A DNA stretch of 64,000 bases from Bacteroidales bacterium. Lineage in GTDB: Bacteria > Bacteroidota > Bacteroidia > Bacteroidales > VadinHA17. The translations under genes were made by a program, and so were the position numbers. Shown one piece after another: positions 26,744-46,662 of the stretch (positions within the stretch are counted from its first letter, which is position 1; the number at the start of each line of letters is the position of its first letter). The DNA lies in the NCBI GenBank assembly GCA_021371855.1, contig JAJFVL010000022.1, forward strand, positions 1 to 64,000, given 5' to 3'. Below the pieces are notes generated by a model. That model was not told the origin of the DNA and ran no database searches. It was given only the letters and a program-made list of their open reading frames with translations.

Positions 26744-26764
26744 ATAAAAAGCCCAGTGGCTAAT

Positions 26765-27352
26765 AAATAGGACTCTGAGCGGTCAGCACGACCCAGCGAT
26801 GAGTCGGTGTTGAACTACAACCCTCCGGATTAAGAGCTATGTACTTGAAGACGTTTTTTAATTTTTTTTGAAGGAAAACAGATTAACCGTCAATCGAGGT
26901 TTTGGAAGTTATTTGTTTTTTAGCCAATCCCAAAGATGAAGCTGTAAAAAAAGGCAGCGTTTTATTCATTTTTTGCTCACTGTAAGACATACCTTTCCAT
27001 GTAGCATCATTAGCGCCCCGGGGATTTGTTAATCAAGACTATTACAGTTATTGATCAGGAAAATACCAACCGTGGAACGGATGCACTCCTTTCTCCGCTC
27101 TACGCTCTGTGTACGCTCTGTGCTCTGTACTCTATGCCCCATACTCTGTGCCGGCCACATTTTTAACCCTGTTCATAACTTGCTACAAATATCTGAATAT
27201 CATTGCAGCTTCTTTGGTAAATTTATCAGGCTGATACAATCAGTGAAGAAATGAGGTGTTGGTTTTTGTAGTGCGCTATTTATCTGAAAAAATAAACATT
27301 ATTATATATAATAAAAGCATAATATGTGGAATAAAAGTAACTATATAAACAT
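26765..27352. other. Non-coding spacer between cassette-like units 1 and 2
   Basis: No gene recognised. At 27080-27155 there is a degenerate tandem run of CTCTGTG-like words (CGCTCTGTG, GCTCTGTG, ACTCTGTG). The stretch at about 26811 reads GTTGAAC, but no matching partner arm was found. A short open stretch on the minus strand near 26900-27030 has no start and no recognised family. Confidence 0.4.
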
Positions 27353-27394
27353 GTTACAAGCCATTCGAGACAACCCCTACTGACAAATAAAAAT

Positions 27395-28042: not shown

Positions 28043-28065
28043 TAATCTCATCAAAAATCCATAAT

Positions 28066-28563
28066 ATGATTAGACAGCAGATTTGGACCAATTTAGTCAA
28101 TACAAAATTTAAATGCATCTATCTTGGCCATTTGATCCACAGAGATAAGAGGATAAGTCTTGGGATTAATATATTCCTTGCAATCATTTCCTTATCAAGC
28201 ATCTCAGCTTGGACAATATGGAAAATTTTACCAGGATTGTTTACATCCCTTATAGCCATTTCTAATATTCTGATGGTAATTAAACCTATCCTATCTTTCG
28301 ATAAAAGAATCAAGGAGTTAAATGAAAAAATAATTCTGCTGGAGGATGTACAATTCGAATATGAAAAATTATGGTATCACTTTGAAACGAATAGAATTAA
28401 TGAAAATAAGGTATCGGAAACTTTTTTCGAAATCTACGAAAAACAAAAGAATAGTCTCAGAACATCTAGTGAGTTAATAATAGGCAAAAATAAAAAGATC
28501 ACTTCAAAAAGTGATAGTGAAACAGATAGTTACATAAGGAATCATTACGGATATACTTACTAA
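28066..28563 (+). CDS. SLATT-like two-TM coiled-coil protein
   Basis: A 165-residue protein with two adjacent hydrophobic segments at about residues 31-53 and 54-77 joined by a very short turn. A long charged helix (residues ~80-125, FDKRIKELNEKIILLEDVQFE) and a polar tail follow. Two tight TM helices followed by a coiled coil is the architecture of SLATT-type effectors described in conflict systems, thought to perforate the membrane when triggered. The assignment is by architecture only. It starts 23 bases after the nuclease gene, and the next gene begins one base after its stop. Confidence 0.55.
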   Translation: MIRQQIWTNLVNTKFKCIYLGHLIHRDKRISLGINIFLAIISLSSISAWTIWKILPGLFTSLIAISNILMVIKPILSFDKRIKELNEKIILLEDVQFEYEKLWYHFETNRINENKVSETFFEIYEKQKNSLRTSSELIIGKNKKITSKSDSETDSYIRNHYGYTY

Positions 28564-28564
28564 A

Positions 28565-28792
28565 ATGGATAATCAATTATTAAATCAGACAAGCATTGTT
28601 GATGTTTTAGAATTAACAGAGGCAGAAACCCGGATGGTAACAATTAATTCTGAAGAGAAAAAACCAGTACCTCCGCTACCACCTCCCCCTCCACCTGAGA
28701 GACGTGGAGTAGACCGACCAGAAATTAAAGGAATTCCAGATAAACCTTTTATTCCTCCACCACCACCCCCGCCTCCATCAAAAGATAAATAA
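28565..28792 (+). CDS. Polyproline microprotein
   Basis: A 75-residue protein beginning one base after the two-TM gene stop. The first ~30 residues are acidic and polar (MDNQLLNQTSIVDVLELTEA). Two proline runs follow: PPLPPPPPPERR and FIPPPPPPPPSKDK. Such runs form polyproline-II helices that bind partner domains, and they stall ribosomes unless EF-P acts, so translation may be deliberately slow. No family is known to me. The tight coupling suggests it binds or restrains the two-TM protein or the nuclease. A non-functional low-complexity frame is possible, but the ATG position and reading length argue for a real gene. Confidence 0.55.
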   Translation: MDNQLLNQTSIVDVLELTEAETRMVTINSEEKKPVPPLPPPPPPERRGVDRPEIKGIPDKPFIPPPPPPPPSKDK

Positions 28793-28814
28793 TACCTTGA
28801 TCAAATAAAAAAAC

Positions 28815-29145
28815 GGCTTGTAACACGGACGGTAGGGTTAATAAGCTTGTCACACTTTTTGCTTTTGCTCCTGCACCCAAGACAAATTCGTGATGTTCTT
28901 GCACCCGGACTCGCTCATCTGCACCCAATTAAATTCCTGCATCTTGACTAATTTCTGGCTTCGAGACAGTTTGTATCGCGACACTGCCTGCACCCAATAA
29001 AATTTGTACCATGACGGCAAAAAGTGCGCCATACCCTCCTTGCACCGTGACAGTTTACTGGCCCCGCTGCCGCGGGGTACCAGGATTGTTACCGGATGCT
29101 GTCGTCGGGTAACGCTTACTAAGCCCTACCGCCGGGCCGTTAGCG
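28815..29145. repeat. Long intergenic spacer element, copy A
   Basis: This 331-bp spacer begins GGCTTGTAACACGGACGGTA and ends CGGGCCGTTAGCG. Copy B at 46234-46590 begins GCCTGTAACACGGATGGTA and ends CGGGCCGTTGGCG, and the two also share AAAATTTGTA..CCATGAC inside. Copy A contains about five degenerate TGCACCC words in 180 bases. The ends look like R'' and R' boxes of an attC site, but the length is about three times the usual. Confidence 0.5.
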
Positions 29146-29195
29146 TTCATGATAAAAAAGGACACACGAAATAAACAACCTAAAAATAGAAAATT

Positions 29196-30272
29196 ATGCC
29201 ATTAGAAATTTTTGTACCAAATACAGGACAAGGCGATTGCACTTATGTAAGATTTGCAAATGGGAAAAACATGCTTGTCGATATGAACAAGTCGACTACC
29301 GACGTTGATATTATAGAGTTTTTAAGAGATAAAATCAAGAAAACTTATCATAGTGATATTGATAAGACTTGTAGAAGAATAAATTACTTTGTAAACACTC
29401 ATCCGCATGAAGATCATTTACGTGGAATTGCTGAGCTTGACTCGGATGAATTTTACATTGACAAGATTTGGGAATCAGATCACAGGTTATATGTTCCGAA
29501 AGAAAAACAAGCGGAATACCCTCATTATTATGCCTTTCTCAGCCTTGTAAATAAGTTAAAGAAAAGAAGTGCAGTTAGAGTATTAAAAGCAGGAAGAGCA
29601 TGCTTTGAAGAAATAGGCTCAGCGAAAATATATGTTTTTGCTCCTTCACAATACTTGACCGATTCTTCATCAAGAGAAGACATTCATAATCAATGTGGTA
29701 TTTTAAAAATTGAATATGCTGATAACTCTGTTTTATTTGCTGGTGACTCTGATCGCTCAAGTTGGGAAGATCGAATCGTACCAAATTATTCAGATGATAA
29801 AGAAATTGATGGTAAAAAGCAATCTAATCTACTAAAGTCCACAGTGCTTCATGCAAGTCATCATGGGTCAAAATACTTTTTTGTAAAAAAGAATAATGAC
29901 GATGACAAATATAAAAGGAGTATGGATAAAATAGATCCCAGATTTACTATAATACCGGTTGGAAAAGACAATAAGCATGGTCATCCTGATAAGCTCGCTG
30001 TTGATATTTATATTGAAAAGACGAAGTATAATAGAGTATTCCAGACAAAAGACGATAAATCAATCTACTTTGCATTTTTTAGCGATGGTAAAGTTCAATA
30101 TAAAAAAGGATTAAGTTATGACCAACTTGTATCAATGAAACCGGATGAATCTAAAACAATAACCAATTCTTTATATAGTTCAACTAGGACACTTTCTGGT
30201 TATATTCCAACAGACATAGAATTATCAATGCCTGTAATTATTCCGAAAACTAAACGTGAAGGTTATATGTAA
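29196..30272 (+). CDS. Metallo-beta-lactamase-fold hydrolase of a ubiquitin-like conjugation operon
   Basis: A 358-residue soluble MBL-fold protein. The metal motif is complete: THPHEDH (His69, His71, Asp73, His74), followed by VLFAGDSDRSSW and LHASHHGSKYFF for the remaining Asp and His ligands. A ~60-residue C-terminal tail follows the hydrolase core. It heads an operon with an E2-E1 fusion, a JAB peptidase and a four-TM protein; the E2-E1 gene starts two bases after its stop. In type II CBASS this position is held by a cyclic-nucleotide synthase. MBL proteins have been noted beside bacterial E1/E2/JAB genes in comparative surveys, but their role is not established. It could degrade or sense a nucleotide or nucleic acid. 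Confidence 0.8.
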   Translation: MPLEIFVPNTGQGDCTYVRFANGKNMLVDMNKSTTDVDIIEFLRDKIKKTYHSDIDKTCRRINYFVNTHPHEDHLRGIAELDSDEFYIDKIWESDHRLYVPKEKQAEYPHYYAFLSLVNKLKKRSAVRVLKAGRACFEEIGSAKIYVFAPSQYLTDSSSREDIHNQCGILKIEYADNSVLFAGDSDRSSWEDRIVPNYSDDKEIDGKKQSNLLKSTVLHASHHGSKYFFVKKNNDDDKYKRSMDKIDPRFTIIPVGKDNKHGHPDKLAVDIYIEKTKYNRVFQTKDDKSIYFAFFSDGKVQYKKGLSYDQLVSMKPDESKTITNSLYSSTRTLSGYIPTDIELSMPVIIPKTKREGYM

Positions 30273-30274
30273 TT

Positions 30275-32035
30275 ATGTATTGGTGGGAAGAAAGAAAAGA
30301 TGTGCTTGTCAGAGAAAAAACAAGACTGGATAAAAAATATCCATTAAATGATTTCCAATTTGAAATCGAAGATGGTTATTTGTGGCTAAAAGGAACAATT
30401 CATATTGAAAAGAAATTAGATTTTCATTTTCCATTTGAATTAAAATACCCAAAATCTTATCCATTTGCTCCACCGTTTATTTATCCAAAGGATAAATCAT
30501 CAGATTGGGTTCCAGGTCATCAATTCATACTAAATGGACGTTTTTGTTTAGACATCAGAGAACATAATTGGGATCCAAATTTTTCCGGTGTAGATATAAT
30601 TGAAAGTATGGCCACCCTAATAAATGCCAGAGTAGATAAATACTTAAAAAAAACAGATAAATTAAGTGTTTTGGAAGGAGTAGAACCGACGATTTTAGAA
30701 ACAAAAACAAAAGATAAAATTTGTTTATATTCTTCCATTTCTAGTCCATTCAAAAACGAATCAGGTGTTTTTAAATATTTTACACTCAATGAATTATTTG
30801 ATAATAGAATAATAATATTACCAGATTTAGATTTTAAAGACATTTTAGCATCAGCGTTTTTCAATATATGGGATATGGATATTTTTTCTGATAAAAAAGG
30901 TATCTATTTAAAAGTTAATCTATCTAATATTAACGATATTCTGGGTTGTAAAAAGATAGATGAGTTATATTCTTGTTTTGAAACAACTGGCATTATTGAA
31001 AAACAACAAATTGAAACATTAGTTACTGATAATGAAAGTTCGTACATTCTTCTTGTTGATGAGATATTAAAACCAATTGTTTTAATAAAGCTTAACAAAG
31101 CAGAATCAGACATAAAGTTTTATGGTTTGTATGAGATAGATTTTGAGAAAATATTTAATAGGATTCCAAATAAAGAAGAGAAGACTTTATTAAGCAATTG
31201 CAAGGTAACAATAATTGGCTGTGGATCAGGAGGTAGTTCAATTGCTGAATACTTAGTCAAATCAGGGGTGTCAAAATTGGTATTAATAGATTCTGAAATT
31301 TTAGAAGTTGAAAATGTTCTACGGCATACGTGTACATTAAAGGATATAGGGCTCAAAAAGGTTTTGGCTCTAAAAAATCGCCTAAAAACTATAAACCCAA
31401 TTATCGAAGTTACTACCATAGAGAAAAATATTGATTCTTTTACAGAAGAGATTGATTCAAAGATCAAGAATTCAGACTTGATTATAAATGCTATTGGGAA
31501 TTCAGAAAGTATGGTAAATGCTTATTCATATTTGAATAAAATTACTACTATACATTGTAAGGTATATCCATTTGGTTTTGGAGGTGAAGTATTAAGAATT
31601 ATTCCTGATGTTACTCCATGCTATGATTGCCTTTACAAATATTTAAATACAGAATTAGAAGAAATACCAATTCACACTGAGTTTCCGCACGATCAAACAA
31701 TTAACTACAACATAACCAACGAAGGAGAAACTATTCCAATACCATCTTTAGCAGTTGATGCAGGGTTTATCATAAATATTACTTCAAAAATGGCAATTGA
31801 GACTTTATTGTCTAGCAAGAAAGATTTGAAAAACAAACAAAATATCATTCTTTGGGGGAATAAAAAAGAATGGATTTTTAATGAAGAATTTTCTTGTTTA
31901 AAGGTTGAAACAAAGTTGAGCAAATCTTACAACAACTGTATTGTCTGTCATAACCATGATGCAATTCATAAGGAAGTAAATATGGATGAATCAGAGATGA
32001 ATGAATATTATTCAGCAATTCAGATTAAAAGATGA
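30275..32035 (+). CDS. E2-E1 fusion protein (Cap2-like ubiquitin-like transferase)
   Basis: A 586-residue protein with an E2-like domain (about 1-125), a linker, and a ThiF/E1 adenylation domain (about 305-480). The E2 catalytic cysteine is Cys91 in LNGRFCLDIREHNW, in the usual setting after YPKSYPFAPPFIYP. The E1 nucleotide loop is IIGCGSGGSSIAEYL (Gly315-Gly320), followed by LIDSEILEVENVLRH with the Asp, Asn and Arg of E1 enzymes. Two zinc pairs, Cys449/Cys452 and Cys555/Cys558, are present. By analogy with CBASS Cap2 it should charge a protein's C-terminus and pass it to a target. No ubiquitin-like protein is encoded beside it, so the modified partner is unknown; candidates are the MBL or TM protein. 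Confidence 0.88.
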   Translation: MYWWEERKDVLVREKTRLDKKYPLNDFQFEIEDGYLWLKGTIHIEKKLDFHFPFELKYPKSYPFAPPFIYPKDKSSDWVPGHQFILNGRFCLDIREHNWDPNFSGVDIIESMATLINARVDKYLKKTDKLSVLEGVEPTILETKTKDKICLYSSISSPFKNESGVFKYFTLNELFDNRIIILPDLDFKDILASAFFNIWDMDIFSDKKGIYLKVNLSNINDILGCKKIDELYSCFETTGIIEKQQIETLVTDNESSYILLVDEILKPIVLIKLNKAESDIKFYGLYEIDFEKIFNRIPNKEEKTLLSNCKVTIIGCGSGGSSIAEYLVKSGVSKLVLIDSEILEVENVLRHTCTLKDIGLKKVLALKNRLKTINPIIEVTTIEKNIDSFTEEIDSKIKNSDLIINAIGNSESMVNAYSYLNKITTIHCKVYPFGFGGEVLRIIPDVTPCYDCLYKYLNTELEEIPIHTEFPHDQTINYNITNEGETIPIPSLAVDAGFIINITSKMAIETLLSSKKDLKNKQNIILWGNKKEWIFNEEFSCLKVETKLSKSYNNCIVCHNHDAIHKEVNMDESEMNEYYSAIQIKR

Positions 32036-32484
32036 AACAAATATCAATATCATTAGATGATAACTCTAAGGAAAAAATAGTAGAGGCTCTTAAAAGATAT
32101 TCGCCAAATGAAATTGGGGGTATATTAATCGGAAATAAAGTCTCAGAGGATTATATAATTGTCAATGATGTTTCAATTTCTAATGAGAGCGGTTTATTTA
32201 ATTTTGCTTCTTTCATTAGAGACACTGTAAAAGCTCAAAAATTATTAAATGAGCATTACAAAAACTCAACTGGATTTTATGTTGGAGAATGGCATTCACA
32301 TCCAAGCTTCTCATTAAATCCAAGTGGCAAGGATATTATTACAATGAAAGGGATTATTCAGGATAAAAACTACAATGCATCGTTTGCTATTCTTATAATC
32401 GTAAAATTGAACCTTGAAAAAGAACTTGAATCAAAGGGATTCTTATTTCACAAAGAAATTAAAGAATACATTTGCTTAGAATAA
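32032..32484 (+). CDS. JAB/JAMM metallopeptidase (Cap3-like deconjugase)
   Basis: A 150-residue zinc isopeptidase of the JAB/MPN+ family. All JAMM residues are present at family spacing: Glu27 (NEIGGIL), His88 and His90 (GEWHSHPS), Ser98 and Asp101 (NPSGKD). It would cleave the bond made by the E2-E1 protein, as Cap3 does in type II CBASS. Its ATG overlaps the end of the E2-E1 gene by four bases (ATGA), so the two are translationally coupled. It is soluble, with no extra domain. Confidence 0.88.
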   Translation: MKQISISLDDNSKEKIVEALKRYSPNEIGGILIGNKVSEDYIIVNDVSISNESGLFNFASFIRDTVKAQKLLNEHYKNSTGFYVGEWHSHPSFSLNPSGKDIITMKGIIQDKNYNASFAILIIVKLNLEKELESKGFLFHKEIKEYICLE

Positions 32485-33488: not shown

Positions 33489-35039
33489 ATGGCAAAGAAA
33501 AACGGGAACGGGTCCGAAGAACCTTTAGAAAAACAACTCTGGAAAGCAGCTGATAAACTGAGAAAAAACATTGATGCAGCTGAATATAAGCATGTGGTTT
33601 TAGGATTAATTTTCCTGAAATACATATCCGATGCTTTCGAAGAGTTGTTTGCTAAACTGAAAGCAGAAGAAGCCCAGGGAGCCGATCCAGAAGACAAAGA
33701 CGAATACAAAGCAGAAAATGTATTCTTCGTTCCAAAGGATGCGCGGTGGGGTGATTTGTTGGCAAAAGCAAAACAACCTGATATTGGTAAGTTTGTGGAT
33801 AACGCAATGGACGCGCTTGAAAAGGAAAATGCTTCTTTGAAAGGTGTTTTGCCTAAAGTATATGCTCGACAGAACCTTGATCCGACAAGTTTGGGCGAAT
33901 TAATTGATTTGGTGGGTAATATTGCCCTTGGCGATACAAAAGCCCGTAGCGCTGATGTCCTCGGACACGTTTTTGAATATTTCCTTGGTGAATTTGCCCT
34001 TGCCGAAGGCAAGAAGGGAGGACAATTCTACACCCCACGAAGTGTTGTTGAATTGCTGGTTGAAATGTTAGAACCTTATCAAGGACGGGTTTTCGATCCA
34101 TGTTGTGGTTCGGGTGGTATGTTTGTACAATCGGAAAAATTTGTAGAAGGACGAAAAGGAAGAGTAAACGATATTTCCATTTATGGACAGGAAAGTAACC
34201 AGACTACATGGCGATTATGTAAAATGAACCTTGCCATACGTGGCATTGACAGTTCTCAGGTAAAATGGAATAACGAGGGTTCATTTCTGAACAATGCACA
34301 CAAAGACCTGAAAGCCGATTTTATTATTGCTAATCCACCCTTTAACGTGAGTGACTGGGGAGGCGATTTGCTTCGTAAAGACGGACGCTGGCAATACGGT
34401 GTACCACCCGTTGGCAACGCCAATTACGCTTGGATTCAACATTTCCTTTATCACTTGGCACCCAACGGACAAGCAGGTTTTGTGTTGGCAAAAGGTTCGC
34501 TAACTACTAAAACATCAGGTGAAGGAGAAATTCGTAAAGCTTTGGTAGAAAACAACCTGATTGATTGCATTGTAAACCTTCCTGCTAAACTTTTCCTTAA
34601 TACACAAATACCCGCCTCGCTTTGGTTTATGAACCGAAACCGTACAAACGGGAAATTCCGTAATCGCAGCAACGAAATACTATTTATTGATGCCCGAAAC
34701 CTTGGCCATTTGATAAACCGCAGAACTAAGGAACTATCACCAGAGGATATTCAAGAAATTGCAGAGACTTACCATAATTGGCGTAATGTACAAACGCACG
34801 GCCGTGCGTCTCAATACGAGGATATTGCGGGTTTCTGTGCCTCTGTTCTCATAGAACGGGTAAAGGAATTGGATTACGTGCTTACACCCGGACGTTATGT
34901 TGGTTTACCCGATGATGAAGACGACTTTAATTTTAACGAACGGTTTTCGGCTCTGAAAGCTGAATTAGAAGAGCAACTCAAAGAAGAACAACAACTAAAT
35001 AAAATAATTGCCGCCAACCTTTCTAAAATTAAATATTAA
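33489..35039 (+). CDS. hsdM: Type I restriction-modification methyltransferase subunit
   Basis: N6-adenine methyltransferase subunit of a type I system, 516 residues. An N-terminal helical domain (1-150) precedes the catalytic domain. The AdoMet-binding motif I is FDPCCGSGG (residues 202-210) and the catalytic motif IV is NPPF (282-285). It works as a dimer with HsdS to methylate the recognition site and, with HsdR, to license cleavage. It opens an operon whose order here is hsdM, dinD, small ORF, hsdS, RAYT and hsdR. GC content is visibly higher than in the preceding defence units, which suggests a separate origin. Confidence 0.95.
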
Positions 35040-35042
35040 CCC

Positions 35043-35897
35043 ATGTCAAAAGAACTTACCAAACAACATAATAGCCTTTTCGAGCAAATAAGGCAAACAG
35101 ACGAAAGTGGTAATGAATTTTGGAGCGCCAGAGATTTGTCAAAAGTGTTGGAATACTCTGAATACAGGCACTTTATGTCAGTAATAGAACGAGCAAAAGA
35201 AGCTTGCATTAACAGTGGCCAGCAAATAACAGACCATTTCGAGGATATCCTCGAAATGGTTAATATTGGGTCTGGGGCACAAAGAAAAACTGAAAGCGTA
35301 AAACTTTCAAGGTATGCATGTTATTTGATTGTACAAAATGCCGACCCTGGTAAAGAGGTTGTGGCCTTGGGTCAGACCTATTTTGCTGTGCAAACCCGTT
35401 TACAGGAAATTCGTCAAATGGACGAGTACAACCGTTTGAGTACCGAAGACGAAAAACGGATGTTTCTCCGCAACGAAATGGCAAAACATAATACACAGCT
35501 TGCGGCAGCCGCAAAAAATGCCGGAGTAATTGAGCCTGTAGATTATGCAATATTTCAGAATCACGGATATATGGGTTTGTATGGAGGATTAGATGCTAAA
35601 GCAATCCATAAAAAGAAAGGGCTAAAGAAAAGCCAGCAGATACTCGACCACATGGGCAGTACAGAGTTGGCAGCGAATCTGTTCCGAGCTACACAAACCG
35701 AAGAAAAGCTAAAAAGAGAAAACATCAGAGGTAAACAGAAAGCCAACCAAACACACTACGAAGTAGGCAAAAAAGTGCGCAAAACCATTCAGGAATTAGG
35801 AGGCGAAATGCCCGAAAACCTGCCCGTAGCAGATAGTATCAAGAGGATAGAAAAAGCCCGGGAGCCTAAATCGCTAAAAAAACCAAAGAAAAAATAA
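35043..35897 (+). CDS. dinD: DNA-damage-inducible protein D homologue
   Basis: A 284-residue DinD-family protein, with an N-terminal BRO-N/P22AR-like domain (EFWSARDLSKVLEYSEYRHF, then RKTESVKLSRYACYLIVQNADP) and a helical C-terminal half. E. coli DinD is SOS-induced and inhibits RecA-driven strand exchange. In many genomes, as here, the gene sits inside type I restriction operons, where it may protect the host chromosome or adjust repair after cleavage. It starts three bases after hsdM. No LexA-type operator was seen. Confidence 0.88.
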   Translation: MSKELTKQHNSLFEQIRQTDESGNEFWSARDLSKVLEYSEYRHFMSVIERAKEACINSGQQITDHFEDILEMVNIGSGAQRKTESVKLSRYACYLIVQNADPGKEVVALGQTYFAVQTRLQEIRQMDEYNRLSTEDEKRMFLRNEMAKHNTQLAAAAKNAGVIEPVDYAIFQNHGYMGLYGGLDAKAIHKKKGLKKSQQILDHMGSTELAANLFRATQTEEKLKRENIRGKQKANQTHYEVGKKVRKTIQELGGEMPENLPVADSIKRIEKAREPKSLKKPKKK

Positions 35898-35943
35898 TAA
35901 AATCATTGAGTCATAGAAATCAAGGTTCAGACAACTTTTAAAG

Positions 35944-36192
35944 ATGAAAATAATGAGCAATAAAAACATATACAACTTTACTGTTGGCGAACTGATAAAA
36001 ATATTACAGCAATACCCCAAAGATATGCCGGTGGTTGTAAGCGGTTACGAAAACGGTTATGAGAATTTTTATCATCCGTTTGTGAAAAAAGTAAAACACA
36101 TGCCCGAAAACCCTTATTACGATGGTCTGTTTCAGCTCGACGACAATGGAGCAGATGCCCTGCTTTTAGAAAGGGAGGTCAGAAATGACTGA
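35944..36192 (+). CDS. Small conserved-looking protein in the type I operon
   Basis: An 82-residue soluble protein, with TVGELIKILQQYPKDMPVVVSGYE as its core and an acidic C-terminus; a Met nine bases downstream could also be the start. The pattern ELIKxLxxYPxDxPVVV is found in small hypothetical proteins linked to restriction or phage genes, but no function is known. Its end overlaps hsdS by eight bases (ATGACTGA), so the two are co-translated. It may modulate the specificity subunit. Confidence 0.6.
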   Translation: MKIMSNKNIYNFTVGELIKILQQYPKDMPVVVSGYENGYENFYHPFVKKVKHMPENPYYDGLFQLDDNGADALLLEREVRND

Positions 36193-37369
36193 GTGGAAAG
36201 AAGTAGAATTACAAGAAATAGCTGAAGTACAAACTGGACCATTTGGAAGTCAGTTAAAAAATGAACAATATGTAACAGGTGGTACTCCTGTTGTTACTGT
36301 AGAACATTTACAGGACTTTAGGATAATTGACTTTGATTATCCAAGTGTAACAGAAGAAGATAAAAACAGACTTTCAAAATATTTATTAAAACAGGATGAC
36401 ATAGTTTTTACAAGGGTTGGTTCTGTTGATTTAAGTGCATTTGTAAAAAAGCACCAAGATGGTTGGATGTTTTCTTCAAGAATGCTTCGTGTTAGGGCAA
36501 ACCCCGTTGAAGTAGATTCACGATTTTTAAGCTATTATTTTCAACAGAAAAGTTTTAGAGATTACATTTTGAATATTTCGGTTGGTGCAACAATGCCTTC
36601 AATAAATACTGAAATTTTAAAAACAATACCTGTTTCTTATCCTTATTTACCTGAACAAAAAGCCATAGCCGAAATCCTTTCCAGCCTCGACGACAAAATT
36701 GACCTGCTCCATCGCCAAAACGCCACCCTCGAAAAAATGGCAGAAACGCTTTTTAGGCAGTGGTTTGTGGAGGAAGCTAAGGAGGAGTGGGAAATAGGAA
36801 CTTTAGATGAAATACTAACAGTTAAAGGTGGAACGACTCCAAGTACAAGCGAACCCGCATTTTGGAATGGAACAATACATTGGACTTCTCCAAGAGATAT
36901 TACAAACTTAAATGGGATTTACTTATTCGACACTGAAAGAAAAATAACCGAATTAGGACTCTCAAAAATTAGTTCTGGTTTATTACCAAAAGGCACTTTA
37001 CTGATGTCCTCAAGAGCACCTGTTGGAGTTTTGGCCTTTTCTGAAGTTCCAGTTGCAATCAATCAAGGATACATTGCTATTCTTGACGACAAGGGATATT
37101 CAAAAGAATTCATCTACCTGTGGTTGAAAATAAACATTGATACAGTTCATAGTTTTTCAAATGGCTCAACATTTATGGAAGTTAGTAAATCTGCATTTAA
37201 ATCAATAGAAATTCAAATACCACCTATGAGCATATTAAGAGAATTTCAATTTATAGTTAAACCCTATTTTGAAAAAATTAAAACAAACCAAACCCAAATC
37301 CGCACCCTCACCGCTTTGGGCGATACCTTGTTGCCGAAATTGATGAATGGGGAGGTAAGGGTATTGTAA
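36185..37369 (+). CDS. hsdS: Type I restriction specificity subunit
   Basis: DNA-recognition subunit of the type I enzyme, 394 residues. Two target-recognition domains are seen, each followed by a conserved helix. The first spans about 1-155 (QTGPFGSQLKNEQY ... PYLPEQKAIAEILSSLDDKIDLLHRQNATLE). The second begins GTLDEILTVKGGTTPST and ends with IRTLTALGDTLLPKLMNGEV. Conserved helices set the spacing between the two half-sites. The two domains look unrelated, so the site should be asymmetric and bipartite; its sequence cannot be predicted here. No second hsdS or inversion-ready repeat was seen nearby. Confidence 0.92.
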   Translation: MTEWKEVELQEIAEVQTGPFGSQLKNEQYVTGGTPVVTVEHLQDFRIIDFDYPSVTEEDKNRLSKYLLKQDDIVFTRVGSVDLSAFVKKHQDGWMFSSRMLRVRANPVEVDSRFLSYYFQQKSFRDYILNISVGATMPSINTEILKTIPVSYPYLPEQKAIAEILSSLDDKIDLLHRQNATLEKMAETLFRQWFVEEAKEEWEIGTLDEILTVKGGTTPSTSEPAFWNGTIHWTSPRDITNLNGIYLFDTERKITELGLSKISSGLLPKGTLLMSSRAPVGVLAFSEVPVAINQGYIAILDDKGYSKEFIYLWLKINIDTVHSFSNGSTFMEVSKSAFKSIEIQIPPMSILREFQFIVKPYFEKIKTNQTQIRTLTALGDTLLPKLMNGEVRVL

Positions 37370-37403
37370 AGATAAGGCATGCTTTGTCCCCAAAAAAACC
37401 GAT

Positions 37404-38006
37404 ATGGACAAATTTCAAAATAAATACCGCATACCATCTACCCGACTGCAAAACTGGAATTACGGACAAAATGCGGCCTATTTTGTAACCATTTGCACAC
37501 AGGACAGAGAATGTTATTTTGGTGATGTGGTTGATGGGAAAATGCATTTGTCGGATATCGGGATTATCGCCGATATTCTTTGGCACGAAATAAAAAACCA
37601 TGTACAAAACATTGAATTGGGCGAATTTGTGGTAATGCCAAATCATGTGCACGGGATATTGATATTGAATGGTAATGATACCATTCGCATGAACAACGCC
37701 AACGTAGAGACAACGCATGCGTTGTCTCTACAAACCCAACAACAAACCCAACAACAAACCAATGGGCAAAAACGATTTCAAAACCAGGGCAAAAACACAT
37801 TATCGTCAATTATCGGTTCATATAAATCGGCGGTTTCAAAACATGCACACCGGTTAGGGTTCCATTTTGTATGGCAATCGAGGTTTCATGACCACATTAT
37901 CCGAAACAGACAATCGTATCAAACCATATCCGAATATATCATCTCTAATCCGTTAAGATGGAACAATGATAAATTCAATTGTATGAATAAAAATATTGAA
38001 GAATGA
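37404..38006 (+). CDS. REP-associated tyrosine transposase (RAYT) within the restriction operon
   Basis: A 200-residue HUH single-strand transposase of the Y1/RAYT group. The HUH motif is FVVMPNHVHGIL and the catalytic tyrosine is probably in TISEYIISNPLRW. RAYTs recognise GTAG-headed REP hairpins. A perfect 28-bp palindrome starting GTAGAGAC (37704-37731) lies inside this gene and encodes VETTHALSL in a variable linker before a Gln-rich run (QTQQQTQQQTNGQ). The stop overlaps the hsdR start by four bases (ATGA), so the transposase gene is embedded in the restriction operon without disrupting it. Confidence 0.85.
   Translation: MDKFQNKYRIPSTRLQNWNYGQNAAYFVTICTQDRECYFGDVVDGKMHLSDIGIIADILWHEIKNHVQNIELGEFVVMPNHVHGILILNGNDTIRMNNANVETTHALSLQTQQQTQQQTNGQKRFQNQGKNTLSSIIGSYKSAVSKHAHRLGFHFVWQSRFHDHIIRNRQSYQTISEYIISNPLRWNNDKFNCMNKNIEE
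37704..37731. repeat. GTAG-type REP palindrome inside the RAYT gene
   Basis: GTAGAGACAACGCATGCGTTGTCTCTAC is a perfect palindrome of 14 bp per arm, beginning with the GTAG tetranucleotide that RAYT enzymes bind. A related palindrome beginning GTAGAGAC lies at 50358-50384. Confidence 0.8.
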
Positions 38007-38968
38007 CCCGAATTACGGAAAACAGCATTGAAGAATTTGCAATCGAGTTATTGGACAAGCTCGGTTACGAATACATTTATGCGCCCAATATTGCCCCTGA
38101 TGGTGAAACACCCGAACGGGAGACCTACGAGCAGGTTTTATTGATTGATCGTTTACAAAACGCTGTAAAACGTATTAACAAATCCATTCCTGCCGATGCA
38201 CAAGACGAAGCCTTAAAGGAAATCCAGCGTATTGCTTCGCCTGAATTATTGGCGAATAATGAATCTTTTCACAGGCTTTTAACTGAAGGTATTCCTGTTT
38301 CAAAGCGGGTTGATGGAGATGACCGTGGCGACCGTGTTTGGCTGATTGACTTTAAAAATCCGTACAACAACGATTTTGTGGTTGCCAACCAGTTTACCGT
38401 GGTGGAGAACAACAATAACAAACGTCCCGATGTAATTTTGTTTGTCAATGGTATTCCGTTGGTGGTTATCGAATTAAAAAATGCTGCCGATGAAAATGCA
38501 ACCATTCATTCGGCATTCAAACAGATAGAAACTTATAAATCTATTATCCCAGGCCTTTTTATGTACAACGGTTTTGTAGTTATTTCAGATGGGTTGGAAG
38601 CCAAAGCTGGTTCCATTTCGGCTGGGTTCAGCCGTTTTATGGCATGGAAATCTGCCGATGGTAAAGCCGAAGCATCACATTTGGTTAGCCAGTTAGAAAC
38701 CCTTATTTTGGGTATGCTCAATAAAGAAACGCTGATTGATTTAATCCGTCATTTCATTGTATTTGAAAAATCGAAAAGAGAAGACCCCGAAACGGGAATC
38801 ATTACTATAACCACAGTTAAAAAGCTTGCAGCTTATCATCAATACTATGCTGTAAACCGTGCTGTGGAATCCACACTACGGGCATCGGGCTTTAATTCCC
38901 CTCCTTTGGAGGGGTGGCAGACGAAGTCTGACGGGGTGGTCAATTCCCCTCCTTTGGAGGGGTGGTAG
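38003..38968 (+). pseudogene. hsdR: Type I restriction subunit HsdR, N-terminal part (split by stop)
   Basis: The first 300 residues are the HsdR N-terminal nuclease domain, with the PD-(D/E)XK site Asp143 (RPDVILF), Glu157 and Lys159 (VVIELKN). The frame then enters two 48-bp repeats translated as NSPPLEGWQTKSDGVV and ends at TAG (38966-38968). Downstream, the same frame reopens 15 bases later and continues through a DUF559 domain into the HsdR motor. Without the TAG the whole would be one 1235-residue protein. In repeat copy 1 the same codon is CAG, so a single C-to-T change made the stop. Read-through, a split enzyme or inactivation are all possible. Confidence 0.85.
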
Positions 38969-38989
38969 ACGAAGTCTGACGGGGTGGTC
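38894..38989 (+). repeat. Two tandem 48-bp repeats
   Basis: Copies 38894-38941 and 38942-38989 are identical except C (38918) versus T (38966). Each contains the palindrome CCCCTCC-TTT-GGAGGGG and the hairpin-like CAGACGAAGTCTG, and ends GACGGGGTGGTC. Confidence 0.9.
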
Positions 38990-39386
38990 AAAAGAGCCAG
39001 TAAAAACTACTTCGAATTACCCTACAATCCAAAACTTAAAGAACGCGCATGTGCATTGCGTCAAGCCGGAAATTTACCGGAAGTTCTTTTCTGGAATCAG
39101 GTAAAGAACAAGCAATTTAGAGGTTACGATTTCGACAGACAAAAGATAATTGGCAATTATATTGTTGATTTTTATTGCTGCAACTGTCAAGTAGTGATAG
39201 AAGTAGATGGAAGCAGTCATGATGAAAAACAGGAATACGATGCAGAACGAGATACTTACCTGGAATCGCTTGGTTTAAAGCTGATTCATATTCCGGTAAT
39301 GGATGTGTTGCAGAGAATGAATGCGGTTATGGAGATGCTCTACGACCACCCCGCCCTAAAGGGCACCCCTCCGGAGGAGGGGAATT
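38894..39386 (+). mobile_element. DUF559 endonuclease element inserted in hsdR
   Basis: A 493-bp insertion between the HsdR nuclease and motor domains. The left end is the 48-bp repeat (AATTCCCCTCC...GACGGGGTGGTC). The right end (39344-39386) is its imperfect inverted copy, beginning GACCACCCCG and ending GGAGGAGGGGAATT. Between them is a single DUF559 endonuclease domain. The whole insert is open in the hsdR frame apart from one TAG. Repeats of this type with DUF559 genes appear to be dispersed in Bacteroidota; the movement mechanism is not established. Confidence 0.75.
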
Positions 39387-41710
39387 TGGTCATGGAATCG
39401 CCAGAAAGTTACGGTGTGCCAGGCGTAAAAAAACAACCTGTTGGCGACCGCAAAGGTGGCGTAGTTTGGCACACACAAGGGAGCGGCAAATCGCTTTCAA
39501 TGGTTTTTTATACTGGCAAAATCGTGTTGGCAATGGATAACCCTACCATTGTAGTAATTACCGACCGCAACGATTTGGACGACCAGCTTTTTGATACATT
39601 CGCAGCATCTAAACAGCTATTACGACAAGAACCCGTTCAGGCCGAAGATAGAAACCAACTGAAAGAACTTCTAAAGGTCGGTTCGGGTGGTGTGGTTTTT
39701 ACAACCATTCAAAAATTTCAACCCGACAATGGAAATGTTTACGAATTGCTTTCCAATCGTGAAAACATTGTTGTAATTGCCGATGAAGCACACCGCACAC
39801 AATACGGTTTTAAAGCCAAAACTATTGACGACAAAAACGAGAGAGGTGATGTAGTCGGTAAAAAAATTGTTTATGGTTTTGCAAAATATATGCGTGATGC
39901 CTTGCCTAATGCTACTTATCTGGGTTTTACAGGTACACCCATTGAAAATACCGATGTAAATACCCCTGCCGTTTTCGGGAATTATGTGGACATTTACGAC
40001 ATTGCTCAAGCCGTTGAAGACGGGGCGACTGTCCGTATTTATTACGAAAGCCGCTTGGCAAAAGTAAACCTTAGCGAAGAAGGCAAAAAGTTAGTTGACG
40101 AATTGGACGAAGAACTAGACCAGGAGGATTTAACCGATACCCAAAAAGCAAAATCAAAGTGGACTCAATTAGAAGCATTGGTAGGCAGCGAAAACCGAAT
40201 TAACCAGATTGCAAAAGATATTATAGAACATTTCGAACAACGACAAGCTGTTTTTGAAGGCAAAGGGATGATTGTTACCATGAGTCGCCGTATTGCAGCC
40301 GATTTATACGAAGCCATCATCAAACTAAAACCCGAATGGCATTCCGGTGAACTGAACAAAGGCGTTATCAAAGTGGTAATGACTTCTTCATCGTCTGATG
40401 GTCCCAAGATTTCAAAACATCATACTACCAAAGAACAACGCCGTACTTTAGCCGAACGCATGAAAAACCCCGATGATGAACTAAAACTTGTTATAGTTCG
40501 GGATATGTGGCTCACTGGTTTTGACGCGCCAAGTTTGCACACCCTTTACATTGACAAACCTATGAAAGGGCATAATTTGATGCAAGCTATCGCAAGGGTA
40601 AACCGTGTTTACAAGGACAAACCGGGTGGTTTAATTGTCGATTATTTAGGTATTGCGTCCGATTTAAAAAAGGCACTTTCATTCTATTCCGATTCAGGTG
40701 GAAAAGGCGACCCGACCATTTTACAGGAACAGGCTGTTCAGTTGATGTTGGAAAAACTGGAAGTGGTTTCCAATATGTATTATGCATTTAATTATGAAGA
40801 TTTTTTTGAAGCCGAAACTTCCAAAAAGCTTTCTATTATTTTGGCCGCCGAGGAACACATCTTAGGCTTGGAAGATGGCAGGAAAAGATACATAAATGAA
40901 GTTTCGGCATTGTCAAAAGCCTTTGCCATAGCTATTCCGCATGATAAGGCAATGGATGCCAAAGATGAAATTTCATTTTTTCAGGCAGTAAAAGCACGTT
41001 TGGCAAAATTTGACGGTACAGGTTCGGGCAAAACCGATGAAGAAATTGAGACAACCATCCGTCAGGTAATTGACAAAGCATTGGTTACCGAAAAAGTAAT
41101 TGATGTATTTGATGCCGCAGGACTAAAGAAACCTGACATTTCAATACTTTCAGAAGAATTCCTTTTGGAACTAAAAGGAATGGAACATAAAAATGTAGCC
41201 CTCGAAGTATTGAAAAAGCTATTGAATGATGAAATAAAATCGAGAGCTAAAAAGAACCTTGTTAAAAGTAAGTCTTTAATGGAAATGTTGGAAAATGCCA
41301 TTAAGAAATACCATAATAAAATCCTTACAGCAGCCGAAGTTATTGAGGAACTGATAAACCTGAGCAAAGAAATTGTTGAAATGGATAGCGAGGCCAAAGC
41401 AATGGGATTATCAGACTTTGAATATGCTTTTTACACAGCAGTTGCGAACAACGACAGCGCAAGAGAACTCATGCAAAAAGACAAATTGCGTGAATTAGCC
41501 GTTGTTTTGACAGAAACCATCAAACAAAATGCCTCGATTGATTGGACAATAAAGGAAAGTGTTAAAGCTAAATTGAAGGTTGCTGTAAAAAGACTTTTAA
41601 GAAAATATGGCTATCCGCCAGACATGCAAATGCTCGCAACTGAAACCGTATTGAAACAAGCAGAAATGATTGCTAATGAATTGACAAACAAAGAAAAAGC
41701 TAAAATATAA
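38984..41710 (+). CDS. hsdR: DUF559 endonuclease domain fused to HsdR motor domains
   Basis: Opens at GTG 38984 inside the second repeat; 908 residues. Residues ~8-125 are a DUF559 (Vsr-like PD-(D/E)XK) domain, with [22 protein letters not shown] and a following [13 protein letters not shown]. From about residue 135 the HsdR translocase resumes: [11 protein letters not shown] (Walker A), [11 protein letters not shown] (DEAH box), LGFTGTPIE, and [16 protein letters not shown] (motif VI), then a helical C-terminus for HsdM binding. The HsdR nuclease domain is on the preceding fragment. This piece might be made separately from the GTG, giving a motor with a substitute nuclease, or as part of a read-through product. 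Confidence 0.85.
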
Positions 41711-41844: not shown

Positions 41845-42282
41845 ATGAAAAAAGAGGATATCCTTATCTGCTCTGAATTATCAAGACTCGGTAGAAACTT
41901 GCTAATGATTATGGGTATCCTTAATGAATGTATGAACCGGAATATTAAGGTTTGGACAATCAAAGACAATTATCGTCTGGGAAGCGATATCAGCTCCAAA
42001 GTTCTTGCGTTTGCTTTCGGACTTTCTGCAGAAATTGAACCAAATCTTATATCGCAAAGAACTAAAGAAGCCTTGGCCAGAAAAAGAGCTGAAGGCGTAA
42101 TTTTAGGTCGTCCTTTGGGTAGGAAATCCTCTAAAACCAAACTTACAGGACAGGAAAAAAAGATAAAAGAGTTATTAGATAAAAAAGTATCTTACAGCGC
42201 CATAGGTAGGATTTTAGGGGTGCACAGGTTAACCGTTTCTAGCTATGTAATGAGAGAAAAAATTAATTCATCAGAAAGTTAA
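41845..42282 (+). pseudogene. Truncated serine recombinase (resolvase/invertase)
   Basis: 145 residues resembling the C-terminal two thirds of a small serine recombinase: EDILICSELSRLGRNLLMIM, then the long helix FAFGLSAEIEPNLISQRTKEALARKRAEGVILGRP, then a helix-turn-helix (KKVSYSAIGRILGVHRLTVSSY). The usual first ~55 residues with the YxRVSTxxQ catalytic serine are missing, and the frame before the ATG is not open to them. The protein could still bind DNA but not recombine. It lies between hsdR and the primase-helicase gene, a likely scar of the element that brought that gene. Confidence 0.75.
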
Positions 42283-42450
42283 AAACACAATCACAGCAGT
42301 CACCCCCATTGCCTAAGCTCAATTAGCCATCGTGTTCAACATGGTTTGGCAAATTAGATAATTATACTATTTTTAAAGTTCATTTGCAACTCAAACTTAA
42401 TTATGTAATTACAATCTTAAAATAGATCAAAAGGGAAAATAAACTTTTTT

Positions 42451-44589
42451 ATGCAGTACACTCCTGAAAATATAATCCAATTCAAATCCATTTTCCATGG
42501 CAGGCAGGATGTATATGCTACTCATTGGGAAAAAGACGGTAAAAGTGGTTATATGCCTGCTTATAAAGTTGATTGGAGCGATTACAGAGAACACACAGCT
42601 AAAGGAGGAACATTTAAGGATTATCCAAAGAAAGAATATCAGCCGTTTACCACTGAAGTAATCCTTCAGCATTTCCAGGGAAACGAAACGATTGGAATTT
42701 ATCCTTTTTTAGAAGATAATACTTCATATTTTATTGCAGCCGATTTTGATGATAAAAATTGGGAAGTATCTATTTTAAAGTTGTATTCCACTTGTATTAA
42801 ATACGATATACCAGCATATATTGAACGTTCCCGGTCGGGTAATGGCGGTCATCTTTGGGTTTTCTTCGAAGAAAACCTTCCGGCAGAACAAACCCGTAAA
42901 TTAATGTTTGAACTGTTAAGAGAGGCTTCAATTATTTCACCTTTCGAAAAAGAACCAAGTTTTGACAGGTTATTTCCCAATCAGGATTTCCATTCAGGAA
43001 AAGGTCTTGGCAATCTGATTGCATTGCCTTTAAACGGTAAAGCTCTTCAAAACAGCAATTCCGTCTTCTCAAGTCCAGGTACTTCTGAACCATTTGTTGA
43101 TCAATTTGAAGCGATAAGCAGTTTTCGAAGACTATCAAAAGCAAATTTTCTTATCCTATATGAAAACTTCTTCGACCACAAACCACAGGAGTTCATGAAA
43201 TCAAAATTTTCCTTAGATTCTCATAATGAAATTGAAATACAAATTGACAGACTGATTTACCTTAAACGTCTGCAGCTAAACAAAAAACTTATCGAATTTC
43301 TCCGTGATAATTTGAACTTTCTAAATTCCGATTATCTGGTTAAAAAGAACATGGGCAGAGCAACTTATAATCTTGAAAAATATTTCAGGTTAATTGAAGA
43401 GACTTCAGATGAGGTAATTATTCCCAGAGGTTTTGTCGCCACACTTGTCACTTTCTGCAAGCACGAAAATCTTTCGTTCAAGATCATTGATAACCGTAAG
43501 AAGCTTGATTTCATAGATTTTGATTCAGAAATTGAATTATTACCAGATCAGGAACTAGCCATAGAAAAGACTTTAGACAAAGATTTTGGAGTAATTGTTT
43601 CTCCCCCAGGTTCAGGTAAAACTATTATCGGGCTCGAAATTATTGCACAAAAAAGGCAACCAGCCTTAATCATTGTTCATAGGATACAATTATTTGATCA
43701 ATGGATTGACCGTATACAAAGTTTCCTTAAAATACCCAAAAAAGAAATCGGCCAGATTGGCAATCAGAAATTTAAAATTGGCAAAGAGATAACTGTTGCA
43801 ATGATTCAATCTCTTGCCCGGAACGATAAAATCGCTAAAATATCTGATTGTTTTGGAACTATTATAGTTGACGAGTGTCATCATATCCCCGCAAAATCGT
43901 TCAGAGAAGCAATTGTTAACTTCAACTCATTTTATTTGTATGGTTTGACAGCTACTCCAAAACGCAAAAATAATGACGAAAAACTTATATATGTCTACAT
44001 TGGTAATATTTTATATAATGCTGATCAGATAAATCAGATTAAAAAAAACCAAACTAAAGTTGAGATTAATATCAGGTTAACAGACCTTTATGCCCCATTT
44101 GATTATAAAATCGATAAATACGAAACAATTTCAAGGATACTGATTCATGATACTCAACGTAATTCTCTTATAATTAAAGATTTGGAAAATAATATCGGCC
44201 GTTTTAAATCAGTTTTAGTCCTTACTGAACGAAAAGCACATGTGGAAATATTAAACCTTTACCTTAAAGACAAATATGAGACGATTCCCATTTCTGGGGA
44301 TGATTCCGAAAAAAGCAGGAAGAGTAAATTGGAACAATTAAAACAAGGCCATTACAAAATTGCAATTTCAACAGGTCAATACTTTGGAGAAGGTATTGAT
44401 CTTGATAATTTAGAATGCCTATTTATCGTTTACCCGTTTGCTTTTGAAGGGAAACTGATTCAATATATCGGTCGAATCCAGCGTTCAGGAAAACCATCTG
44501 TAATTTTCGATTACAGAGATTCAAAAATTGATTATTTTGACAAAATGTTTAAACAGAGAAACCGGTATTACAATAAACTATTAAAATAA
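42451..44589 (+). CDS. Primase-polymerase/SF2 helicase fusion (TOTE-like)
   Basis: A 712-residue fusion. Residues ~1-200 resemble the archaeo-eukaryotic primase (AEP) domain of TOTE conflict systems: FIAADFDDKNW supplies the catalytic D-x-D and RSRSGNGGHLWVFF the downstream His motif. Residues ~365-712 are a superfamily 2 helicase with Walker A SPPGSGKT, DECHH box IIVDECHHIPAK, LYGLTATPKRK and motif VI QYIGRIQRSGK. Such proteins may make or extend primers while unwinding, and are thought to act in conflicts between mobile elements and hosts. It is followed four bases later by an AlbA_2-type regulator. No kinase or ERCC4-type nuclease partner was seen. Confidence 0.75.
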   Translation: MQYTPENIIQFKSIFHGRQDVYATHWEKDGKSGYMPAYKVDWSDYREHTAKGGTFKDYPKKEYQPFTTEVILQHFQGNETIGIYPFLEDNTSYFIAADFDDKNWEVSILKLYSTCIKYDIPAYIERSRSGNGGHLWVFFEENLPAEQTRKLMFELLREASIISPFEKEPSFDRLFPNQDFHSGKGLGNLIALPLNGKALQNSNSVFSSPGTSEPFVDQFEAISSFRRLSKANFLILYENFFDHKPQEFMKSKFSLDSHNEIEIQIDRLIYLKRLQLNKKLIEFLRDNLNFLNSDYLVKKNMGRATYNLEKYFRLIEETSDEVIIPRGFVATLVTFCKHENLSFKIIDNRKKLDFIDFDSEIELLPDQELAIEKTLDKDFGVIVSPPGSGKTIIGLEIIAQKRQPALIIVHRIQLFDQWIDRIQSFLKIPKKEIGQIGNQKFKIGKEITVAMIQSLARNDKIAKISDCFGTIIVDECHHIPAKSFREAIVNFNSFYLYGLTATPKRKNNDEKLIYVYIGNILYNADQINQIKKNQTKVEINIRLTDLYAPFDYKIDKYETISRILIHDTQRNSLIIKDLENNIGRFKSVLVLTERKAHVEILNLYLKDKYETIPISGDDSEKSRKSKLEQLKQGHYKIAISTGQYFGEGIDLDNLECLFIVYPFAFEGKLIQYIGRIQRSGKPSVIFDYRDSKIDYFDKMFKQRNRYYNKLLK

Positions 44590-44593
44590 CCAT

Positions 44594-45922
44594 ATGTCTG
44601 AAAATCAAAGCATAGAATTTAAGGAAACCTGGAAGGATGAATACCTTAAATGGATTTGTGGTTTTGCAAATGCCAATGGCGGAACTATTTTCATTGGGAA
44701 GAATGATAAAGGAGAAATCGTTCCAATTGAAAATGCCAAAAAATTATTAGAAGATATTCCAAACAAGGTAAAGGATACATTAGGGATATTGGTTGACGTT
44801 AATTTGCATCATACAGTCAAAGGTGATTTTATTGAAATAATAGTAGAATCTTATCCTTATCCGGTCAATTACAAAGGTCAATACCATTACCGGAGTGGAG
44901 CTACCAAGCAGGAATTAAAAGGAGCTGCATTAGACAAATTTCTTTTGCAACGTAAAGGCAAAAGATGGGACGGGGTTCCATTACCAAATATTTCTGTAGC
45001 AGAATTAAAGCAGGAAGCACTTGACTTTTTTCGTAAAAGAGCTCTTAAAAGCCAACGCATTGAAGAAGATGTATTAACTGACTCTAATGAACTTTTGATT
45101 GAAAACCTTCAATTAATAGAAAATGCATTTCTAAAACGGGCAGCTATTTTACTGTTTCATCCTAATCCTGAAAAATATATTACCGGGGCATTCATCAAAA
45201 TAGGTTTTTTTGAAACAGATGATGACCTGAAATTTCAGGACGAAATACACGGCAACTTATTTGAACAGATTGAAAAGGCTATGGATTTACTTTTTACCAA
45301 ATACATTAAAGCAGAAATAAGTTACGAGGGCATTAATAGAGTCGAAAAATATGAATATCCGAAAGATGCGGTTCGTGAAGCTCTGTTAAATGCTATTGCA
45401 CACAAAGACTATTCTGGAGGTGTTCCTATCCAGATTAGTGTTTACAACGACAAAATCATTTTTTGGAATGAAGGTCAATTGCCAGAAAATTGGACAGTTG
45501 AAAATCTATTGACCAAACATCCGTCAAAACCCTATAATCCGGATATTGCCAATGCCCTTTTCAGAAGCGGTTACATTGAATCGTGGGGTCGTGGAACTTT
45601 AAAGATGATTAAAGTATGTATTGACGCTGGTTTACCTAAACCTCTGTACTACTATGATATGTCGGGCTTTTTTGTGGAGTTTAGAAAAAACATATTCAGT
45701 GAGAAATATCTTAAATCTCTTGGATTAAGTGATCGGCAGGAAAAAGCAATTATATTCATTAAAGAAAAAGGTAAAATTTCGAATAGTGAGTATCAGGATC
45801 TAAACAATGTATCTAAGGCTACAGCTACAAGAGATTTATCAGAACTTGTTGAGAAATATGAAATTTTAAGAAGAGCAGGTGATATTGGGGCAGGAACTAA
45901 TTATGTTTTGATTGGCTCATAA
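44594..45922 (+). CDS. AlbA_2/HATPase transcriptional regulator-like protein
   Basis: A 442-residue protein of the putative transcriptional regulator/ATPase type. An N-terminal AlbA_2 (Schlafen-like) domain is marked by SIEFKETW, FANANGGTIFIGKNDKGE and YHYRSGATKQEL. A GHKL-like ATPase domain (HATPase_c_4) has EALLNAIAHKDYSGG and WNEGQLPENW, then FRSGYIESWGRGTLKM. A winged helix ends it (LSDRQEKAIIFIKEKGKISNSEYQDL). It is coupled to the primase-helicase by a four-base gap. Proteins of this form are frequent in defence islands, and roles as regulators or RNA/DNA-targeting factors have been proposed. Confidence 0.8.
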   Translation: MSENQSIEFKETWKDEYLKWICGFANANGGTIFIGKNDKGEIVPIENAKKLLEDIPNKVKDTLGILVDVNLHHTVKGDFIEIIVESYPYPVNYKGQYHYRSGATKQELKGAALDKFLLQRKGKRWDGVPLPNISVAELKQEALDFFRKRALKSQRIEEDVLTDSNELLIENLQLIENAFLKRAAILLFHPNPEKYITGAFIKIGFFETDDDLKFQDEIHGNLFEQIEKAMDLLFTKYIKAEISYEGINRVEKYEYPKDAVREALLNAIAHKDYSGGVPIQISVYNDKIIFWNEGQLPENWTVENLLTKHPSKPYNPDIANALFRSGYIESWGRGTLKMIKVCIDAGLPKPLYYYDMSGFFVEFRKNIFSEKYLKSLGLSDRQEKAIIFIKEKGKISNSEYQDLNNVSKATATRDLSELVEKYEILRRAGDIGAGTNYVLIGS

Positions 45923-46590: not shown

Positions 46591-46662
46591 GTCATTGTAA
46601 AAGGATTCCGAATCAGTCAGACAGCAAAAATAGATAATTTGAAAAATCATTAGAACAAATTG

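Follow-up and report, generated by a model that had tools for sequence, protein, structure and literature searches.

Proteins that read tandem DNA sites located in their own gene are known among replication initiators. Phage lambda O has iterons within its gene and likewise combines a reader with tandem sites. In the pSK41-type RepA_N initiators, the origin is internal to the rep gene, where it codes for a dispensable linker of the protein, such that a winged-helix reader and its tandem sites share one gene (PMC5703833). Another described group, the TOTE conflict systems, is named for TPR, OB, TBP and Effector components (PMC12458937). Here, we describe a locus in a 64,000-nucleotide stretch of a Bacteroidales genome (assembly GCA_021371855.1, contig JAJFVL010000022.1, positions 1 to 64,000; hereafter the window), in which a gene for a primase-helicase is followed by a gene for a protein with Schlafen/AlbA_2, GHKL ATPase and winged helix-turn-helix (wHTH) domains, here called the AlbA_2 protein. 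Three copies of a short unit, TTGGCTCA, lie across the stop codon of the second gene. We consider it probable that the two genes form a cassette in which the wHTH of the AlbA_2 protein binds the array in its own gene, with reader and site together making up one exchangeable module.

An earlier note on this DNA had described a serine recombinase gene, the primase-helicase gene and the AlbA_2 gene, and all three are found where it had placed them (Table 1); the array at the 3′ end of the AlbA_2 gene was absent from it. The gene end reads ...ATTGGCTCATAATTGGCTCAATTGGCTCA, and the three TTGGCTCA copies start at 45912, 45923 and 45932, with spacings of 11 and 9 bp. They are the only copies in the window, and no spaced TTGGCTCA doublet was found elsewhere in the 4.7-Mb genome. 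Upstream of the AlbA_2 gene, copies of the unit are not above chance (1 seen, 1.1 expected), and additional operator copies there were rejected for that reason; this leaves no obvious basis for classical promoter autorepression. Past the array, a 62-nt non-coding stretch (45964-46025) recurs with 84% identity in another genome, at positions 2721-2782 of locus L065, about 4.5 kb upstream of the primase-helicase, suggesting a dispersed repeat.

The geometry of the array is conserved in relatives. Repeated 7-mers were counted in 55 AlbA_2 genes of the group that lacks a GxW tail (class A), with dinucleotide shuffles as the control. A spacing of 11 was found in 40 genes, 20 in 28, 9 in 19 and 31 in 16, compared with 0.5-1 in the shuffles, and the arrangement is kept as 11-9-11 or as two pairs of sites 65-90 bp apart. 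The unit itself varies among relatives, with TTGGCTCA, TTGCACCA, ATGGCGGA, ATGTCGGA, TTGCGTAA and AGGGGCCA among the versions seen.

Evidence that the wHTH is matched to the array comes from the covariation of the unit with the recognition helix. Proteins with an identical recognition helix have an identical unit, even where they otherwise share only about 50% identity. Unit sharing is associated with helix distance once distance across the remainder of the protein is accounted for (partial Mantel test with automatically extracted units, r = 0.27, P = 2e-4), and columns 408 and 409, where the recognition helix begins, rank top of 442 for association with the unit. The match also holds for prediction. 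Cores assigned by eye from the repeats served as the training set, and the held-out genes were a later collection drawn from plasmids and from other orders and classes. Among the held-out genes, 10 had a helix at most one mismatch away from one in the training set, and in all 10 the predicted 6-mer was present two or more times; for the remaining 18 cores, two copies were reached in only 1 of 180 core/gene combinations. Helices at two mismatches gave only a partial match (L228, L234 and L263). A draft recognition code can be written from these pairings: SKAT with GGCTCA, SRNT with GCAC, SERT with GGCGGA, and T/SDRT with GTCGGA.

Fragments of wHTH modules, mostly truncated orphans, were found downstream of 8 of 44 repeat-bearing genes. 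Where the orphan retains an intact known helix, the predicted array is present in all three cases: ATGTCCGA for SEKT in L184, TTGGCTCA for SKAT in L225, and GTCGGA for TDRT in L191. By analogy with the orphan tips of polymorphic toxins, these fragments look like C-terminal reader-plus-site modules that may have been replaced, with the old module remaining behind.

A second class of AlbA_2 genes (class B), in which the protein has a GxW tail, mostly lacks the 3′ array. A 12-bp in-frame tandem repeat was found in the linker just before the wHTH in 44 of 60 such genes, a set into which the tail filter also let a few class A genes, compared with 0 at 12 bp in a control stretch. In L211, L242 and L253 the linker repeat is missing, and a 12-bp array follows the stop codon instead. 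Among 135 distinct AlbA_2 genes, 57 have an in-frame array and, under a lenient criterion, 60 have a terminal repeat, leaving 18 with neither. The wHTH column best associated with the class B repeat again falls at the first turn-in of the recognition helix (family-wise P = 0.0005), where T pairs with AATG, A with AGTT and G with AACT, and the amino acids encoded by the linker vary freely. Were the repeats simply neutral products of slippage, i.e., microsatellites at the 3′ end or low-complexity linkers with no role in binding, class B linkers such as SSDKSSDK and VPDKVPDK would look much as they do, since they resemble ordinary low-complexity linkers. The fixed spacing of 11, 9, 20 and 31 in non-coding DNA, the covariation of repeat and recognition helix seen in each of the two classes, and the success of the held-out predictions all argue against slippage, which we regard as barely credible.

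The computational support is good for the family assignments and motif conservation, as well as for the array, its constant geometry and the way it covaries with the helix. Judging from the sequences, the AlbA_2 protein probably binds DNA in its own gene. Its C-terminal winged helix would contact the three TTGGCTCA sites on one face of the DNA, across its own stop codon. With wHTH and array side by side, the two would be inherited and exchanged together, so that the pair would stay matched as specificity diversifies. As for what binding does, we infer that the protein, gated by ATP, could assemble on its own array, and that the resulting complex would control how the cassette is expressed or how active it is, with insulated self-regulation as the likeliest form. 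The complex might also bring the primase-helicase to DNA under invasion or replication.

The layout is also that expected of an iteron-type module, with the AlbA_2 wHTH protein as the initiator, the array as its iterons, and the primase-helicase loaded for local DNA amplification or as part of a relic replicon. Tandem sites in or beside the AlbA_2 gene that covary with its winged helix, and are predicted to be bound by it, fit this proposal, as does the primase-helicase as operon partner. The variable linker of class B likewise recalls pSK41 Rep, whose linker is encoded by the origin (PMC5703833), and a wHTH whose gene contains or adjoins tandem direct repeats is also the arrangement of the pSK41-type RepA_N genes. 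However, Pfam gave no Rep family match, most AlbA_2 genes are chromosomal or lie within type I restriction-modification (RM) operons, and two of the plasmids that were examined carry a replication initiator of their own beside the AlbA_2 gene. The locus also differs from both RepA_N and lambda O in its sites, which are 8-9 bp long at 11/12-bp spacing, in having AlbA_2 and GHKL domains and no detected Rep homology, and in the mostly chromosomal defence context of its relatives. An initiator role is unlikely, and self-binding of the AlbA_2 protein as part of an exchangeable module is the reading we prefer.

The domain assignments of the AlbA_2 protein are well supported. It matches SLFN_AlbA_2 at 58.2 bits against a cut-off of 25.3, and its glutamate pair, E3 and E8, is invariant and aligns with the ES..IEFK motif of SLFN11. 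Because the first Glu and the EFK of the Schlafen motif are retained, as in SLFN11, nuclease activity is possible. Residues E262, N266, N292, G332 and G334 of the GHKL N-box and G-box are also invariant. The AlphaFold2 (AF2) model has a mean pLDDT of 87.4, and its nearest solved structure is DIP2311 (PDB 3LMM; Foldseek E = 3.5e-25), followed by Schlafen proteins and GHKL kinases. DIP2311 and the AlbA_2 family annotated as "ATP-binding protein / RNA-binding domain-containing protein" share the AlbA_2-GHKL-wHTH architecture, whereas an array within the gene or at its end that is matched to the wHTH is not described in the open-access papers found. More generally, no description of AlbA_2 proteins with such repeats was found in the open-access literature, although a prior description may exist.

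The first gene of the cassette encodes, as the earlier note had recognized, an AEP-type primase fused to a DECH helicase. The profile search that the note had suggested, against the TOTE primase family, gave a match to PF22548 (AEP-TOTE) with E = 4.6e-77, alongside ResIII (E = 1.3e-30) and Helicase_C (E = 7.2e-10). In an alignment of 32 relatives, the primase motifs DxD (D98, D100) and SGxGGH/SGNGGH (S129-H134) are invariant, as are the helicase motifs GKT (389-391) and DECHH (474-478) and the motif around R675; D98, D100 and H134 provide the DxD and sxH motifs of the AEP PrimPol superfamily. Profile matches in the PDB include archaeal XPBII (E = 1e-28) and the CAPP PrimPol of Marinitoga (E = 2.4e-21). 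The AF2 model has a pLDDT of 75.5, with the C-terminal part of the helicase poorly modelled. A fold search with it confirmed the AEP fold, whose absence would have undone the note's proposal, by matching CAPP with a target-normalised TM-score of up to 0.82 (E = 2.6e-11), and XPB/RAD25 and RadD helicases are among the best matches for the helicase part. Related loci number 41 in 84,980 species genomes, mostly of Bacteroidota, and proteobacterial plasmids also carry full-length relatives (32-33% identity over 99% of the length). The primase-helicase is hence a widespread, intact and, from its motifs, active-looking enzyme. The PrimPol fold is like that of Marinitoga CAPP (PDB 7NQD/7NQF), whereas here an XPB-like helicase is fused to it, no CRISPR-like repeat family was found between 33 and 50 kb of the window, and no cas genes occur among the scanned neighbours. 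The helicase core resembles those of XPB/RAD25 and RadD, but it follows an N-terminal PrimPol, and no Bax1 nuclease partner was found alongside.

Several observations weigh against the two-gene, self-binding reading. Some helices, e.g., SKAT, pair with two related units (GGCTCA and GGTTCA). The association of the two genes that the earlier note had suggested looking for does recur: of 31 loci whose downstream sequence could be used, about 17 have AlbA_2 after a gap of 0-20 nt (4 nt past the primase-helicase stop codon here; a distant version in L067, and decayed AlbA_2 genes in L031 and L032), but about 14 of the 31 primase-helicases lack AlbA_2, and most AlbA_2 genes lack a primase-helicase. 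Because each gene often occurs alone, their functional link is looser than a fixed operon, and the only thing that ties them is frequent adjacency. A position behind the stop codon is also an unusual one for an autoregulatory operator, and the promoter motif TAnnTTTG was not clearly enriched after the array (4/35 versus 1.2 in shuffles). The position would suit an ordinary repressor whose site lies in the next promoter, i.e., an array that serves as operator for the downstream gene only: class A arrays lie directly past the stop codon, and several genes have two site pairs 65-90 bp apart that could flank a promoter. However, the same lack of convincing promoter enrichment counts against such a role, the downstream genes vary between relatives, and class B arrays lie within the coding region. 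We therefore judge control of the downstream gene alone to be decidedly improbable, and retain self-binding by the AlbA_2 protein as the better account.

The earlier note had placed the primase-helicase at the core of a TOTE conflict system, retained from an element left immobile by a serine recombinase without its catalytic N-terminus. The loss itself is borne out. The recombinase open reading frame (ORF) matches PF00239 only from profile position 63 (E = 4.2e-16), covers positions 59-199 of 203 in NF009949, the Mpi invertase family, and aligns at 65% identity to an intact 203-amino-acid relative from the same order. Because that alignment begins only at residue 59 of the relative, the first 58 residues are gone, and with them the catalytic serine (IRVSSDKQ in the intact relative); the catalytic N-terminal domain that marks Mpi-type serine invertases is hence absent. 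An in-frame N-terminal extension is impossible, as the open frame is 151 amino acids, and the conserved ER of AEIERNLISQRT reads EP in the fragment (AEIER to AEIEP). The recombinase is single copy in its own genome, with the type I RM operon on one side and the cassette on the other. The 40 other primase-helicase loci all lack a homologue, and relatives found in 80 genomes are few and unlinked, so mobility driven by the recombinase was rejected. Because it is absent from all 40 other loci, the fragment is probably a passenger with no part in the cassette. Serine recombinase genes adjoin AlbA_2 genes on Hymenobacter and Emticicia plasmids (L228 and L231), perhaps by chance.

The TOTE part of the proposal is not supported. 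PF22548 proteins share the full-length fusion of an AEP domain and a superfamily 2 (SF2) helicase, and are annotated "DEAD/DEAH box helicase family protein"; the domain itself is an effector-side one. The partner here is AlbA_2 or none: no TPR-OB/cold-shock or TBP-like gene was found among the scanned neighbours in the window, and no TPR or TBP partner is among the 25 commonest up- and downstream neighbour families of the relatives, rarer families not all being listed. Because no TPR, OB or TBP partner turned up, and these components define TOTE, the locus was not filed as such even though the AEP domain is present. A TOTE relic of an immobilised element would accommodate the AEP-TOTE domain, the adjoining truncated recombinase and the location inside a defence island. 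It is nevertheless very unlikely, since the recombinase belongs to an invertase family rather than being a transposase, and many related loci consist of a primase-helicase with neither a recombinase nor a TPR/TBP gene.

Table 1. Coordinates of the features in the window.
Feature	Position	Strand	Basis or remark
Bacterial defence operon: two metallo-beta-lactamase-like proteins, E2-E1 fusion (ThiF), JAB peptidase	25841..32484	+	PADLOC, Pfam
Type I RM operon	33489..41710	+	
HsdM	33489-35039	+	type I RM operon
BRO-N/PDC-S13 gene	35043-35897	+	between hsdM and hsdS; PADLOC family, phage-defence candidate
HsdS	36185-37369	+	type I RM operon
HsdR, in two ORFs	38003-38968 and 38984-41710	+	type I RM operon
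Serine recombinase (Mpi-family invertase) fragment, N-terminally truncated, 145 amino acids	41845..42282	+	PF00239, NF009949, alignment to intact relative
Primase-helicase, 712 amino acids: AEP/PrimPol (residues 7-232) and XPB-like SF2 DECH helicase (about 361-680)	42451..44589	+	Pfam, motifs, fold search
Schlafen/AlbA_2 - GHKL ATPase (HATPase_c_4) - winged-helix protein, 442 amino acids	44594..45922	+	Pfam SLFN_AlbA_2, HATPase_c_4, HTH_DeoR (PF04326, PF13749, PF08220)
Recognition helix of the wHTH, residues 408-420; motif VSKATATRDL starts at 406	45815..45853	+	AF2 helix H408-420
Tandem array ATTGGCTCA-TA-ATTGGCTCA-ATTGGCTCA across the AlbA_2 stop codon	45911..45939	+	conserved geometry, covariation

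The cassette is part of a Bacteroidales defence island (Table 1). The operon farthest upstream matches the PADLOC families E1-E2 (2.6e-64), JAB (6e-37) and PDC-M48B/LmuA-like, and ThiF and Prok-JAB in Pfam; it is a bacterial ubiquitin-like conjugation system. In the type I RM operon, hsdR is split at 38890-39394 by an in-frame insert that encodes a DUF559 endonuclease, is flanked by the inverted repeats AATTCCCCTCC(TTT)GGAGGGGTG and is single copy in the genome; the homologous hsdR of L051 is uninterrupted. A Y1-transposase-like gene of the REP-associated tyrosine transposase type lies between hsdS and hsdR (37404-38006; weak match, E = 0.0075). The immediate upstream neighbours of the relatives are often defence genes, given here as a purely descriptive list: methyltransferases, N6/N4 or type II, in L033 and L049; RhuM/PDC-S05 in L050, L051 and L062; hsdR in L050 and L051; PDC-S02 in L063; and PDC-M04B in L056.

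Locus L033 shares a block from the start of the primase-helicase to about position 46586 and neither flank, which is the pattern of a cassette moving between sites. The stretch at 46191-46655 was rejected as part of the cassette; it is present in L033 too but belongs to a repeat family with about 12 further copies in the genome, 74-89% identical. Several copies lie in short contigs, 1-4 kb apart, between genes for a VapC-type toxin, a MazF-like protein, katG and RsgA, and this placement between unrelated genes resembles a gene-cassette array. A viral origin of the locus was rejected, as relatives in viral contigs are few and weak.

Proteins with the AlbA_2-GHKL-wHTH architecture are common in defence islands and type I RM operons, where they are usually annotated "ATP-binding protein" and have no known target. 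A bolder extension of self-binding, to which we give a small chance, is that they constitute a broad class of "self-addressed" DNA-binding ATPases, each encoded together with its cognate array past the stop codon or in a linker ahead of the wHTH, whose reader and site are swapped as a cassette with orphan modules staying behind, and that in this locus the nucleoprotein would load the PrimPol-helicase at its own address, as an origin-like or self-recognition device in defence islands. If the wHTH does bind the array, the DNA target of an AlbA_2 protein would be readable from its own gene with the help of the draft code, and binding, specificity swaps and function would become directly testable. 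Self-binding would also account for in-frame 12-bp repeats that otherwise resemble low-complexity linkers, and the family would add a new case in which a reader and its site are passed on together as one exchangeable module.

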